A stretch of DNA of 64,000 bases from the NCBI RefSeq assembly GCF_003121295.1, contig NZ_PHNC01000006.1, positions 1-64,000 on the forward strand, given 5' to 3'. The notes under the pieces were generated by a model, which was given only the letters and a program-made list of their open reading frames with translations, was not told the DNA's origin and searched no databases. Source of the stretch: Streptomyces orinoci (GTDB lineage: Bacteria; Actinomycetota; Actinomycetes; Streptomycetales; Streptomycetaceae). Of the stretch, positions 23,187-54,214 are shown piece after piece. Both the position numbers and the translations under genes were made by a program. The number at the start of each line of letters is the position of its first letter. Position 1 is the first letter of the stretch.

Positions 23187-24767
23187 TCAGCGCTCCCAGG
23201 GCCAGCGGGCGTTCCGCCCGCTCTCCAGCAGCGGCACCATCCGGAACGCGGCGTCGCCGAGCCCGCCGAAGGTGTGCCGGTTGGCCGAACCCGAGGGGCC
23301 ATGGCCGGGCCGGTGGCCGGCCAGATTCCAGGTATAGACCGGGATGTCCGCCGGGACCTGCTCGGTGGGATCGCCCGCGTAGTGATGGGCGGCCTGTTCA
23401 TCGGTGACGATCAGGACCCGGTCATGACCTCGGTAGTGCCGGCGCACCGCCTCGGTGGTGTCGGTGCCGCCGAGGTTGCCGAAGCGTTCCAGCACCTTGA
23501 GGACGGACTCGCCCTTGCGGTAGCTCACCGGGGCGCTGGAGGTGCCGAACTGGACCAGGTCGGCCTCGGCGGCCCGGACGGCCACGGCGGTGCCGAAGAT
23601 GGCGGCCGCGTCGGCGCGGTTGAGCTGGGACCGGTCGGACAGCGGTGACCACATGGAGCCGGAGCGGTCGATCAGGATCAGGGTACGGCCGGGCAACGCG
23701 GGCACATTGGCCAGCGAGTGGCCGAGGGCCCGTTCCAGCGGGTAGGCCCAGCGCAAGGAAGCAGCGTGCTGATAGGCGGCCAGATAGCGGAAGGGGAACT
23801 GCCGGGACCGGGCGACCTCCTCCGGATCGGATATCCGGGCGGCCACCTGCTCGGCGGCCCGGTCGCCGACGCCGGCCTGGTCGAAGTTGCGCAGGTTACG
23901 GACCAGGGCCATGGTGCCCATGGACGGAATGACGGCCTCCCAGACCGCCGCGTCCATCGGGCCCTGCAGCCAGCCCGCCAGCGCCTCCCAGGTCATACCC
24001 GCCTCGGCCAGCCGCTCCGCGCCGCCGGGACCGGTGACCAGGGCGCGGCGTTCCCCGGCGGGCACGGCCATCAGCGCCCGGTGCGCGGTGAGGGTGCGGT
24101 CGGAGGCGGGCGGCAGGGCGTTGTCCGGATTGTGGCGGCGGTCCAGGGCGTACTGGAACAGCTCTCCCTGCCACGGCTTGTCCGGGTGGGGCGTGGGGTG
24201 GACAAGGTTGAGTACATCCCCGAAGCGATAACTCTTGGACGCGGTGTCGTACTTGAGCAGATTGCGTCCGGTGTAGAGCCGCCGTACGGCATCGGCGATG
24301 CCCCGCTTGACCGGCTTCGGGACATTCCGGCCATAGGTGGAGACCCAGTAGGCCAGCATTTCGCCGGGCTCATCGGCGCGGCGCAGTACGGAGTCGATGA
24401 CCTGGCGGTTGGTGGGGCCCTCGGTGGCACCGGCGTCGAGACGGGCCTTGACATATTCGGCGGCGCCGACCAGGGAGGCGGTGCGCATCTGTCCGTCGCC
24501 GCGCAGCCATTCCAGCAGACCCGCGGTCCAGGCGGCGTCCTGGACGGCAAGCTTGCGGACGAGTCCGGCGAACCGCTCATCACGACCGGTGCCGCTCTCG
24601 TGATAGGTCTGCTGCGAAACGAAGTTGGCGACCGCGAGCAGGAACAGCTCGGAGCGGTCGTCCCGCTGGTAGCCCTGGCCGCCGAGGTGGGTACGGGTGC
24701 GCCCGGTGGTGGTCACGGGCGAGGCGGGACGGACCGCCTTGGGCGTACGGCTGTTGAAGCGCGCCAT
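23187..24767 (-). CDS. rsr: Rsr/Ro60-type TROVE-domain RNA-binding protein
   Basis: 526 residues. The TROVE domain covers about 1-370: NSRTPKAVRPASPVTTTGRT, RDDRSELFLLAVANFVSQQT, DGQMRTASLVGAAEYVKARL, MLAYWVSTYGRNVPKPVKRG, IADAVRRLY, and the HEAT-like helices of the Ro ring. The C-terminal von Willebrand A domain has LILIDRSGSMWSPLSDRSQL (a DxSxS MIDAS motif), GTDTTEA and VLIVTDEQ. Ro60 proteins form a ring that binds Y RNAs outside and misfolded RNA ends in the hole; bacterial Rsr assists rRNA maturation or RNA decay with PNPase. Three Y-RNA-like structures lie directly upstream on the same strand. ATG 24767 follows GGGGGAACTCAT. Confidence 0.93.
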   Translation of the reverse strand: MARFNSRTPKAVRPASPVTTTGRTRTHLGGQGYQRDDRSELFLLAVANFVSQQTYHESGTGRDERFAGLVRKLAVQDAAWTAGLLEWLRGDGQMRTASLVGAAEYVKARLDAGATEGPTNRQVIDSVLRRADEPGEMLAYWVSTYGRNVPKPVKRGIADAVRRLYTGRNLLKYDTASKSYRFGDVLNLVHPTPHPDKPWQGELFQYALDRRHNPDNALPPASDRTLTAHRALMAVPAGERRALVTGPGGAERLAEAGMTWEALAGWLQGPMDAAVWEAVIPSMGTMALVRNLRNFDQAGVGDRAAEQVAARISDPEEVARSRQFPFRYLAAYQHAASLRWAYPLERALGHSLANVPALPGRTLILIDRSGSMWSPLSDRSQLNRADAAAIFGTAVAVRAAEADLVQFGTSSAPVSYRKGESVLKVLERFGNLGGTDTTEAVRRHYRGHDRVLIVTDEQAAHHYAGDPTEQVPADIPVYTWNLAGHRPGHGPSGSANRHTFGGLGDAAFRMVPLLESGRNARWPWER

Positions 24768-24802
24768 ATGAGTTCCCCCAAATCCATTGGGGAAGCACGG
24801 CG

Positions 24803-24950
24803 GGGGCGTCCGAGAACAGGGACTGGCGACGGTACACACAACAACGGCCGCTCTGCCTGGCTGAGCTGCACCGGCCCAAAGCCGGGACGGGATTCGAACC
24901 CGCGCCTGCCGTCCCCAGGAAGTAACCGTCACCGGCACACCGGACGCCCC
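24803..24950 (-). ncRNA. Y RNA 1 with permuted tRNA-like module
   Basis: On the reverse strand the ends form a perfect 10-bp stem (GGGGCGTCCG with CGGACGCCCC, 24941-24950 and 24803-24812). An internal loop starting GTG follows, then an inner 9-bp stem (GGTGACGGT with ACCGTCGCC, one G-U), then TACTTC. The apical part contains a T-arm (GCGGGTTCGAATCCCGT), a CCGGC/GCCGG acceptor-like stem closed by a short loop, and a D-arm (GCTCAGCCAGGCAGAGC), in that order. T-arm before D-arm is a circularly permuted tRNA, as described for bacterial Y RNAs (YrlA type), in which the Y stem replaces the anticodon arm. It ends 35 nt before the rsr start codon. Confidence 0.88.
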
Positions 24951-24955
24951 GGTGC

Positions 24956-25037
24956 CGCGCCTCCCGAGTTCAAAGCGGCCACGGCATGGAATTCGGTCAT
25001 TAACGAAGTAGCCGTGGCCCGCGCACCGGGAGGTGCG
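24956..25037 (-). ncRNA. Short Y-like RNA between the two tRNA-like Y RNAs
   Basis: This 82-nt element has the same architecture as its neighbours. The outer stem is CGCACCTCCCG (25027-25037) with CGGGAGGCGCG (24956-24966), one A-C mismatch. The internal loop has GTGC on the 5' side and TTTGAACT on the 3' side. The inner stem is GCGGGCCACGGC with GCCGTGGCCGC (11 bp, one bulged G), followed by TACTTC. Instead of a tRNA-like module it has only a 25-nt loop. It starts 8 nt after Y RNA 2 and ends 5 nt before Y RNA 1. It may be a minimal Y RNA or a spacer hairpin. Confidence 0.6.
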
Positions 25038-25045
25038 TAAAACCA

Positions 25046-25184
25046 GCGTCCAGAGATCGAGGCGGCGGAACCAACATGGTGCTCTGTCCCCTGAGCTACG
25101 CCGGCCTGTGTGCCGGCGGCGGGATTCGAACCCGCGACCTCCCGATTACGAGTCGAAGTAGGTCCTGCCTTCGCACCTGGACGC
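25046..25184 (-). ncRNA. Y RNA 2 with permuted tRNA-like module
   Basis: 139 nt on the reverse strand. The outer stem GCGTCCAG (25177-25184) pairs perfectly with CTGGACGC (25046-25053). The 5' internal loop GTGCGAA is followed by the inner stem GGCAGGACC with GGTTCCGCC (one mismatch, one wobble), then TACTTC. The module reads T-arm (GCGGGTTCGAATCCCGC), acceptor-like GCCGGC-ACACAG-GCCGGC hairpin, then D-arm (TAGCTCAGGGGACAGAGCA). The order is permuted relative to a tRNA, so it is not a tRNA gene. Its 5' end coincides with the start predicted from the promoter just upstream. Confidence 0.88.
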
Positions 25185-25189
25185 GGATC

Positions 25190-25220
25190 ACTCTAGGAGG
25201 GCGGGCGGGCGGACCGCCAA
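25190..25220 (-). promoter_or_regulatory. Probable promoter of the Y RNA-rsr unit
   Basis: On the reverse strand TTGGCG (25215-25220) and TAGAGT (25190-25195) are separated by 19 nt and resemble -35 and -10 hexamers of the major vegetative sigma factor. The predicted start falls close to 25184, exactly where the first Y RNA stem begins, which supports the call. Confidence 0.5.
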
Positions 25221-25266
25221 GGGTTTTTCCGTACACGGGTTTTCCGTGCAGGGGTTCTTCCGTCGG
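25221..25266. repeat. Three short direct repeats upstream of the Y RNA promoter
   Basis: GGGTTTTTCCGT, GGGTTTTCCGT and GGGGTTCTTCCGT follow one another at about 15-bp intervals, immediately upstream of the -35 element on the reverse strand. They could bind an activator or be a simple tandem duplication. Confidence 0.45.
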
Positions 25267-25353: not shown

Positions 25354-26454
25354 CTAGTCATCGCTCAGCGCCTCATCCAGCAGGGCACCGCCCACCAGAC
25401 CGGCCGCACCGGCGCCGAGGAGCGCCCCCGTCCCGAACCGGCGTCCCTGCTGGCCCTGTTGGCCCGGCCCCACGCCGGGCTGCTGCGGATAGCCCTGCTG
25501 CACCGGCGGCTGGTGATTCGCCGGAGGGGCGTAGAAGGGCGGCGTGGTGGTCCGGACCCGCTGCGCACAGCTGGGGCATGCCTCGACCGGCCGGGAGACG
25601 CCCCACTGCGGTGACCACACCGCCGAGTCGGTGCCCGGCCCATGGCTGGGGTCGAAGAAGCAGCCGGCGGGCGCATTCACCGGTGCCTGCTGGGGCGGAT
25701 ACGGCGCGGGGGCGCCCGGCATCATGGGCGCGGCGGCGAGCGTGGGCGCGGACGCGATCGCGGGAGCGGATGCCAGGGTGGGGGCGTGCCCTGCCGGGGC
25801 CTGCGCCGGAGATACGGGCGCGGCAGGCGCGGACCGAACGGTGGGCGCGGACGGAGCTGTGGGCGCCGGTGCCGCGGGCGTGCTCTCCCGCAGAACGTCA
25901 ACACCGTAATCGGTGGCTATGCCGGCGAGCCCGGAGGCGTATCCCTGGCCGATCGCCCGGAACTTCCACTCGGCACCATGGCGGTAGAGCTCACCGAAAA
26001 CCATCGCGGTCTCGGCGGCCGCGGCGTCCTTGAGGTCGAAGCGGGCCAGCTCGGTGCCGCCGTGCTGGTCGATCACCCGGATATGCGCTCCGGCGAGCTG
26101 TCCGAAGTTCTGCCCGCGCTGAGCGGCCTCGTAGATGGAGACCGGGAAGACGATCCGTGCCACCTCGGCGGGCACCCGGGTGAGATCGACCTGTATCTGC
26201 TCATTGTCCCCACCGGTACCGCCGGTTCCGGTGTGCACCACCGAACCATCGGGGCTGCGGAGGTTGTTGAAGAACACGAAGTGCTGATCGGAGAGCACCT
26301 TGCCACTCGCATCGCAGAGCAATGCGCTGGCGTCGAGATCGAAGCCGGCGCCCCCGGCCCCAACCTGCCATCCCAGCCCGACCGTCACGGCGGTCAGACC
26401 ATGCGCCTGCTTCGACAGCGACACATTGCCGCCCTTGGGTAGGGCCACGCCCAT
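25354..26454 (-). CDS. TerD-family protein with long Pro/Ala linker and Cys-containing tail
   Basis: 366 residues. Residues 1 to about 190 are a TerD domain: MGVALPKGGNVSLSKQAHGL, GFDLDASALLCDASGKVLSD, FFNNLRSPDGSVVHTGTG, GDNEQIQVDLTRVP and AELARFDL-like strands, with the acidic pairs that bind calcium. A linker of about 80 residues follows, rich in APT and SAP repeats. The tail contains CFFDPSHGPG and CPSCAQRV, a possible zinc site, and ends with a Gly/Ala-rich segment and DEALSDD. TerD proteins are linked to tellurite and stress responses and to membrane-associated metal-sensing complexes. AGGAGG sits 6 nt before the ATG. Confidence 0.9.
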   Translation of the reverse strand: MGVALPKGGNVSLSKQAHGLTAVTVGLGWQVGAGGAGFDLDASALLCDASGKVLSDQHFVFFNNLRSPDGSVVHTGTGGTGGDNEQIQVDLTRVPAEVARIVFPVSIYEAAQRGQNFGQLAGAHIRVIDQHGGTELARFDLKDAAAAETAMVFGELYRHGAEWKFRAIGQGYASGLAGIATDYGVDVLRESTPAAPAPTAPSAPTVRSAPAAPVSPAQAPAGHAPTLASAPAIASAPTLAAAPMMPGAPAPYPPQQAPVNAPAGCFFDPSHGPGTDSAVWSPQWGVSRPVEACPSCAQRVRTTTPPFYAPPANHQPPVQQGYPQQPGVGPGQQGQQGRRFGTGALLGAGAAGLVGGALLDEALSDD

Positions 26455-26708
26455 CGACGTCCTCCTGAACTCACGCGTTTTCACTGCTGCACTGCGAGAA
26501 CGTGGCCCGGAGGCCGACAGTTCCCGGCTTGCGCACGAGAACGAGGAGGGAATGCGCGGAGCTTCGGTTGCTCGCAACGGCGGGCTACCCGAACTCGCCA
26601 CGGCGGGCTTACCCGAAAGGGTGAATCAGCCCGGATCCGTCCACAGCGGCCCGGACGCGCCGCTTTCCTGGTTCCGTTGACGAGGCGACGCGCGCTGGGG
26701 GGAGCCGC

Positions 26709-54132: not shown

Positions 54133-54141
54133 ACTCCCAAG

Positions 54142-54214
54142 TGGAGCTAAGGAGAATTGAACTCCTGACCTCCTGCATGCCATGCAGGCGCTCTACCAAC
54201 TGAGCTATAGCCCC
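54142..54214 (-). tRNA. tRNA-Ala (anticodon GGC)
   Basis: A 73-nt cloverleaf on the reverse strand. The 7-bp acceptor stem is GGGGCTA with TAGCTCC (one G-U), discriminator A. The D-arm is AGCTCAGTTGGTAGAGC, the anticodon stem CCTGC/GCAGG encloses ATGGCAT with anticodon GGC, and the T-arm is AGGAGTTCAATTCTCCT. CCA is not encoded. TTGGCA (54274-54279) and TAATCT (54249-54254), 19 nt apart, are a possible promoter. No integrase or duplicated att site is seen nearby. Confidence 0.95.

Follow-up and report, generated by a model that had tools for sequence, protein, structure and literature searches.

A tandem array of Y RNA-like units forms the rsr leader of Streptomyces orinoci and may act as a switch built from the partner RNA of Rsr

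On the minus strand of a contig from Streptomyces orinoci, the leader of rsr, the gene encoding the Ro60 orthologue Rsr, is composed of three Y RNA-like units in tandem, as found by reading and folding the sequence. It is proposed here, tentatively and with confidence that stops just short of even, that this leader is a switch made from Rsr's own partner RNA, in which a sensor Y RNA is flanked by Y RNAs with permuted cloverleaves, some of them bearing an anticodon-like arm; the tRNAs of origin appear to differ from lineage to lineage. The narrower proposal, that the central unit (unit 2) senses Rsr and gives negative feedback on rsr, is favoured by a small margin over its negation, because the 3' strand of this unit, S2, could pair either with the 5' strand of the same unit, S1, or with a strand near the ribosome-binding site, S5, which could otherwise cover the Shine-Dalgarno region, S6. 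The window, that is the whole stretch of DNA analysed, comprises 64,000 nt (assembly GCF_003121295.1, contig NZ_PHNC01000006.1, positions 1-64,000). The parts of the array and its gene, with the evidence for each, are as follows.

25046-25184, minus strand: unit 1, putative long Y RNA with a permuted cloverleaf (29-sequence alignment; YrlA score 34.4 bits)
25141-25157, minus strand: anticodon-like arm of unit 1, 5-bp stem with loop CTCGTAA (covariation; ARAGORN CGT anticodon)
25119-25135, minus strand: T arm of unit 1 (YrlA match, alignment)
25100-25117, minus strand: closed acceptor-like stem of unit 1 (YrlA match, alignment)
25081-25096, minus strand: D arm of unit 1 (YrlA match, alignment)
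24957-25036, minus strand: unit 2, putative short Y RNA without a tRNA module, predicted Rsr sensor (57-leader alignment; shrunken natural versions)
24803-24950, minus strand: unit 3, putative long Y RNA (57-leader alignment; YrlA score 35.0 bits)
24887-24903, 24871-24885 and 24850-24866, minus strand: T arm, acceptor-like stem and D arm of unit 3 (alignment, YrlA match)
23187-24767, minus strand: rsr, Ro60 orthologue of 526 aa (Pfam and PDB matches)

The rsr product contains a TROVE domain (PF05731, 8.2e-16), matches the TROVE chains 9l5y and 9kop of the PDB at E about 1e-29 and is the sole Rsr match in its own genome at E 0.001. Upstream of the array lies a gene for a TerD-domain protein (25354-26601, minus strand). 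Each unit, as read from the sequence, has paired ends, a GGTGCG or GGTGTG side, an inner stem of ~9 bp and the sequence TACTTC. The original prediction, made from the letters of this DNA, had described three tandem Y RNA structures of one plan and different sizes that form the rsr leader; all of these features are present in the sequence, and the helices covary (see below). The predicted end of the array 35 nt before the Rsr start codon was likewise recovered, with this distance separating position 24803 from the ATG at 24767-24765. The close packing also stands, whereas the spacers, given earlier as 8 and 5 nt, are counted here as 9 and 6 nt, a value that depends on where the paired ends are cut. 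The 420-nt leader has a more stable fold than all 100 shuffles (z -2.58).

Comparison between loci was based on rsr1 leaders, of which 90 were kept after the removal of ten duplicates and one leader without S1, and 89 after setting aside one that is incomplete (L010). From these, 57 were chosen by hand for alignment, near-duplicates and leaders with reduced units being left out. In the 57 leaders, units 2 and 3 are paired in 93.0% of cells, against 36-55% when slid, with both-side changes in 21 of 49 pairs and a covariation score reached by 0/500 shuffles; unit 1, aligned in 29 sequences, is paired in 97.1% of cells, with both-side changes in 8 of 35 pairs. Compensatory changes in homologous loci, which the original prediction had named as its test, were thus found. 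The S1:S2 stem is paired in 100% of cells in the 57 leaders and is nearly invariant (both-side changes in 0 of 7 pairs), and the lower stem of unit 1 is almost invariant in its 29 sequences (0 of 6 pairs). Such invariance would be as expected of a protein site and is silent as covariation.

Paired 5' and 3' ends with a conserved lower stem and bulge sides are expected of Y RNAs, a position beside the Rsr/Ro60 gene is that of bacterial Y RNAs, and both are found here. By place, plan and lower stem, the units can therefore be assigned, on sequence grounds, to the bacterial Y RNAs. Units 1 and 3 also carry a T arm, a closed acceptor-like stem and a D arm in that order, the arrangement of YrlA and the one foreseen for two of the units; unit 2 does not. 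By the cut-off of Rfam, the units are not members of its YrlA family. The YrlA model (RF02553) scored 35.0 bits on unit 3 and 34.4 bits on the tRNA-like portion of unit 1 (both with E about 1e-5 over 801 bases), below the cut-off of 69, and left unit 2 of the window unmatched at E 10. In 12 further loci it produced seven matches of 32.9-44.4 bits, none above 69, and in the four orphan loci scanned (L210, L212, L218 and L219) it produced none. An Rfam scan returned nothing above its cut-offs over the array part of the window, and ARAGORN called a tRNA-Thr(cgt) over unit 1, so that automated annotation both misses the array and calls a false tRNA, as anticipated. A true tRNA-Thr at 25188-25110 was considered and rejected, its score being 22.2 bits against the Rfam tRNA cut-off of 29 and the conserved D arm of unit 1 lying downstream instead of 5' of the anticodon-like arm. 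Misreading of Y units as tRNAs by ARAGORN, with varied anticodons, occurred in 13 of 55 loci scanned. An ordinary tRNA-Ala(ggc) is present elsewhere in the window, at 54141-54214.

The original prediction placed the Y stem where the anticodon arm of a tRNA would be, but unit 1 has both, the arm at 25157-25141 being conserved and covarying. The order of elements in this unit is Y stem, anticodon-like arm, T arm, closed acceptor, D arm and Y stem, and the sequence can be read as a cloverleaf opened between the D arm and the anticodon arm. The stem of the anticodon-like arm shows both-side changes in 2 of 5 pairs and a covariation score of 0.146 versus 0.038 (0/500 shuffles). Such an arm, with a 7-nt loop on a 5-bp stem whose five pairs are all intact, comes directly after TAC in 81 of 210 distinct long units. 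These 81 were picked on the stem alone and not on the loop; their loops have U at position 2, equivalent to U33 of tRNA, in 80 cases and A at position 7 in 77, whereas U occupies the U33 place in 34 of the other 129 long units. Outside the genus (66 units, 17 different loops), U is at this place in 24/24 units with the arm versus 20/42 others. No such arm is seen in unit 3 of the window. The Rfam YrlA consensus has no hairpin at the position of the anticodon-like arm, and in this respect unit 1 departs from YrlA.

When the tRNA module was compared with 54 own-genome tRNAs, the best matches varied among loci. The isotype of the match agrees with the anticodon-like loop in some cases (Asn with loop GUU in L050 and L053; Glu with loop CUC in L140 and L162) and disagrees in others, for example L142, L144 and L154, in which the loop is GUU and the best match is Lys or Pro. 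In 15 of the 57 aligned rows (L006, L007, L008, L012, L029, L030, L034, L075, L084, L086, L087, L102, L104, L113 and L134), the D arm of unit 3 differs (GTGGCGGAA or GTGGCGAAA ... AGACGCGC) and is of a kind that we take to be Leu-like; the stretch before the T arm is often longer in these rows, and the Y stems are unchanged. To judge from these sequences, the tRNA module of unit 3 seems to have been exchanged in the 15 rows.

Of 199 genomes of the genus, 111 gave an Rsr match, as did 37 of 296 sampled from the class (15 of these belonging to the same genus) and 64 of 150 from one other family (f17); all three counts include matches that are partial or weak. Named genomes, when scanned, supplied 80 Streptomyces loci, the nearest being those of S. 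mashuensis, S. triculaminicus and S. griseocarneus (87-88%). Counting TACTTC or T-loop words proved too loose, and a longer landmark of the Y unit, written after these loci had been viewed, was used instead. It occurs 327 times on both strands of 1,544,298 bases from 139 loci, a set that includes duplicates and in which degenerate units are missed by the landmark, and 315 of the occurrences lie within 900 nt upstream of rsr. Three landmark units are present in 51 loci, two in 56, one in 24, four in 4, five in 2 and none in 2; the packed triplet, earlier thought unusual, is thus one form of an array of one to five units. A stricter Y-unit pattern is present in 82 of the 199 genomes of the genus, with 0 occurrences of the reversed control pattern among the matches listed.

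Several other arrangements were observed in these searches. In L115-L121, L123-L129, L131-L133, L136, L138 and L139, one short Y unit stands alone in front of a second Rsr-like protein, whose match to the query begins at residue 6-26 and whose translation may start at a CTG that closely follows a GGGGGATTC-type site. Ten loci (L210, L211, L212, L214, L215, L218, L220, L223, L225 and L226) carry isolated Y RNA genes at a distance from rsr, at about 2000-2500 of each, with a lower stem like that of unit 1 and a D arm that is presumably of Glu type. All but L210 have a G+C-rich inverted repeat, terminator-like by eye, soon after the Y gene, and single Y RNAs therefore probably exist. Genome G196, the source of L210 and L211, yielded no TROVE protein, and the Y RNAs there are apparently without Rsr. 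A different orphan Y RNA, alone or in tandem, is located just before a long ORF in L213, L216, L219, L221, L222 and L224; this ORF has a PriA 3' DNA-binding domain in all three cases tested (L213, L216 and L219), and in L219 the orphan lies between metK and the priA-type gene. Finally, L217 contains at about 2310-2610 a unit-2/unit-3 pair followed by leader-like sequence and then by a long ORF without a Pfam match, and this pair may be the relic of a lost rsr locus.

The second partner of S2 beside the ribosome-binding site, like the anticodon-like arm of unit 1, goes beyond the earlier reading of this DNA. The strands concerned are listed below.

25027-25033, minus strand: S1, 5' strand of the unit 2 lower stem, CCTCCCG (57-leader alignment)
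24954-24966, minus strand: S2, shared strand, CGGGAGGCGCGGC, partner of S1 or S5 (complementarity, alignment, permutation)
24790-24801, minus strand: S5, second partner of S2, GCCGTGCTTCCC, just after unit 3 (complementarity, alignment, permutation)
24789-24794, minus strand: TTCCCC strand predicted to cover the Shine-Dalgarno site, overlapping S5 (folding)
24770-24779, minus strand: S6, Shine-Dalgarno region of rsr, GGGGGAACTC (sequence, folding)

The TTCCCC strand, which S5 overlaps, can pair with GGGGGAA of the Shine-Dalgarno region. In 69 of 76 parsable leaders (of 89), the native S2-S3/S4-S5 duplex is stronger than the average obtained with swapped partners. With S3:S4 left out, 0/2000 partner permutations reach the native total in 78 Streptomyces leaders (88 minus nine unparsed and one repeat), 0/2000 in 21 divergent leaders (20 from family f17 and L046 of the same genus; a further 21 of the 42 were unparsed) and 0/2000 in the 20 f17 leaders alone, results that are inflated by relatedness. 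Taken one by one against shuffled tails, the S2 match attains p<0.05 in 73 of 88 Streptomyces leaders and in 10 of 29 testable divergent leaders, and is missed by 15 and 19, respectively. All six shared positions together with at least 11 pairs are found in 86 of 88 native leaders, compared with 589 of 1760 shuffles. On the fixed alignment, S2:S5 is paired in 92.4% of cells versus 41-66% when slid; both-side changes affect only 2 of 12 pairs, a level reached by 444/500 shuffles, and the cells with both-side changes number 21 versus 12.2 (0/500 shuffles). In L163, all three strands have changed together (CCTCTCC, GGAGAGG and CCTCTCC for S1, S2 and S5). The exceptions are L023, which has no S5, and L108, in which the S5 match is weak and non-significant.

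Each of the two helices, S1:S2 (state A) and S2:S5 (state B), was forced in 90 leaders, comprising the 89 and the divergent L046. Both can form in 89 of them, L023 having given no S2:S5. The energy of B minus that of A in the 89 leaders has a mean of -2.3 kcal/mol (sd 3.9, range -11.8 to 8.4); state B is favoured by a median of 2.8 kcal/mol and is the lower in 71 leaders, and the two lie within 8 kcal/mol in 84. The G residues of the Shine-Dalgarno site are free with a mean of 0.04 in state A and 0.56 in state B. Their accessibility is higher in B by >0.3 in 66 leaders, the reverse holds in 0 and the remaining 23 lie in between (0.3 or less), a difference that is partly built in by forcing one helix. 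In the window, A has -141.7 and B -137.8, with the Shine-Dalgarno G residues free at 0.02 and 0.41; the closed state A is favoured by 3.9 kcal/mol and is also the unconstrained optimum. For tails folded in isolation, pairing of the Shine-Dalgarno site is 0.96 versus 0.90 when the upstream arm is shuffled (0.77 versus 0.69 in divergent leaders), a modest predicted excess over shuffles. Folding prediction and comparison thus support S1:S2 and S2:S5 as mutually exclusive helices. A palindrome, GAATTC-GGGG-GAATTC, holds the Shine-Dalgarno site in 78 of the 89 leaders, the window not being among them; in L064, L033 and L110, folded from S2 on and so without S1, this palindrome shows the G residues in its loop.

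Natural losses bear on what each unit may be for. Unit 2 is reduced to 30-33 nt in ten loci (L019, L020, L026, L032, L065, L066, L085, L096, L100 and L105), amounting to nine distinct leaders as that of L085 equals that of L032, and the lower stem and the GGTGCG and GATCTC sides are kept. These loci may share one deletion. Ro60 is described as binding a 7-bp lower stem and bulges (PMC4726728), and by analogy the reduced unit 2 of ~32 nt would keep the kind of site that Ro60 binds. Most of unit 3 is lost in six other loci (L064, L011, L022, L033, L106 and L110); a duplex search still finds 11-13 S2:S5 pairs in all six, and when these are folded without S1, S2 pairs with S5 in the optimum of five, L022 being the exception. 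On sequence grounds, both kinds of loss appear to keep what the switch would need and to drop what a free Y RNA would need.

Two elements upstream of unit 1 concern the origin of the transcript.

25190-25195, minus strand: likely -10 element, TAGAGT (TANNNT conserved in related upstream regions)
25216-25221, minus strand: possible -35-like element, CTTGGC, ~20 nt from the -10 element, which is long (conserved block near this distance in 62 upstream regions)

A scan with a strict sigma-70 consensus gave no promoter before unit 1. A TANNNT box nevertheless occurs just upstream of this unit, with hardly any shift in position, in 61 of 62 distinct regions, making a promoter just before the array likely, and the transcription start is likely, by prediction, to fall at about the 5' end of unit 1. 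No terminator-like site was found by the scan between the array and rsr on the minus strand, and release of the Y RNAs would therefore need cutting.

This need speaks for the strongest of the alternative readings, according to which the leader is a plain Y RNA array cut from a common transcript, without feedback on rsr, S2:S5 being the extended base of unit 3 and a processing stem of RNase III type. The continuation of the outer stem of unit 3 by S2:S5 into a long helix fits such a stem, and the orphan Y genes elsewhere that are followed by a terminator-like repeat also favour a plain array, in that single Y RNAs probably exist. Nevertheless, a processing stem does not require that S2:S5 complementarity be kept in the six loci that have lost most of unit 3, nor that unit 2 persist as a bare lower stem with bulge sides in nine distinct leaders, and the overlap of S5 with the strand facing the ribosome-binding site would have to be a coincidence. 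This alternative is regarded as unlikely, if by some distance the least so. Far less probable is a switch of opposite sign, in which Rsr bound to unit 3 would stabilize S2:S5 and open the ribosome-binding site, giving either positive feedback or a stress latch. In both states unit 3 retains a lower stem of its own that resembles an Rsr site, and the median energy favours S2:S5, both of which suit this model; however, unit 2 is alone in needing S2 for its lower stem and in being kept bare in the shrunken loci, and binding at unit 3 would not choose between the states because unit 3 can bind in either. Least probable, by a hair, is that only the Y units are selected and that high G+C content has by itself produced S5 and the strand opposite the Shine-Dalgarno site, since, although shuffled tails also pair this site and a third of shuffles offer a similar S2 match, nearly all native leaders have the S2 match, no partner permutation reached the native total in two groups and L163 has changed its three strands in concert.

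For the favoured reading, with unit 2 as a sensor exerting negative feedback, the computed results are the three complementarities, their conservation, the covariation of the Y units and of S2:S5 and the similar predicted energies of the two states; from these we infer all of the molecular events that follow. A single promoter just 5' of unit 1 would drive transcription across the array and on into rsr. From this transcript, units 1 and 3 would be freed as Y RNAs with permuted tRNA modules, and unit 2 would fold as soon as it is made. Where Rsr is plentiful, it would bind the lower stem of unit 2 and lock S1:S2, leaving S5 free to pair with the Shine-Dalgarno site, and rsr would be little translated. 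Where Rsr is scarce or busy with other RNAs, S5 would invade S2 by way of 5-7 extra pairs (median 6) beyond the shared six, opening unit 2 and freeing the ribosome-binding site.

Bacterial Y RNAs are tethers and gates of Rsr, and a 2014 RNA study reportedly surveyed such RNAs mimicking tRNAs in >250 species. In the autoregulatory leaders of RNA-binding proteins, such as ribosomal proteins, the leader contains a mimic of the RNA that the protein normally recognizes, and binding of the protein there leads to a covered ribosome-binding site. The logic predicted for the rsr leader is alike, with the difference that the sensor here would be a relative of the Y RNAs within an array that would also supply the partner RNAs. 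We know of no permuted tRNA module in vertebrate Y RNAs and of no role for them as an mRNA leader. They do resemble the present units in their lower stem of ~7 bp with bulges (PMC4726728), and the primer for the 5' end of human RNY1 (GGCTGGTCCGAAGGTAGTGAG; PMC13382184) agrees with unit 1 (CAGGTGCGAAGGCAG) at 12 of 15 places. The closest known relative is YrlA (RF02553; Salmonella YrlA, PDB 6CU1), which shares the location beside rsr, the paired ends with a basal stem and the permuted T arm, acceptor and D arm. The literature describes YrlA as a circularly permuted tRNA (PMC11472068) with D, T and acceptor arms, held by Rsr through its basal stem (PMC8394870). The differences are that units 1 and 3 attain about half of the required 69 bits (34-35), that unit 1 has the extra anticodon-like arm between Y stem and T arm, that unit 2 is without a tRNA module and that the array is the rsr leader here, whereas in Salmonella the organization is an rsr-yrlBA-rtcBA operon regulated by RtcR (PMC7790460). 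The Deinococcus system likewise joins a Y RNA with an Rsr protein, the Y RNA tethering Rsr to PNPase in the RYPER complex; the accessible sections of the two papers that describe it (PMC8394870, PMC4726728) do not mention a leader switch. Among the matches listed in a search of open-licence full texts, none dealt with Streptomyces Y RNAs or with a switch in the leader of rsr.

We know of no answer to the question of how the amounts of Rsr and Y RNA are matched. A real switch would mean that free Rsr is measured in cis by its own partner RNA; with array, sensor and messenger being one transcript, the cell would therefore match the amount of Rsr to the unfilled Y RNA sites, and a few point mutants in a laboratory Streptomyces would then suffice to address the question. 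The family of Y units escapes Rfam, at the cut-offs of that database, in the loci scanned and yields false tRNA calls. If the anticodon-like arm is real, some Y RNAs would mimic a whole tRNA, which bears on which tRNA-binding enzymes they may attract.
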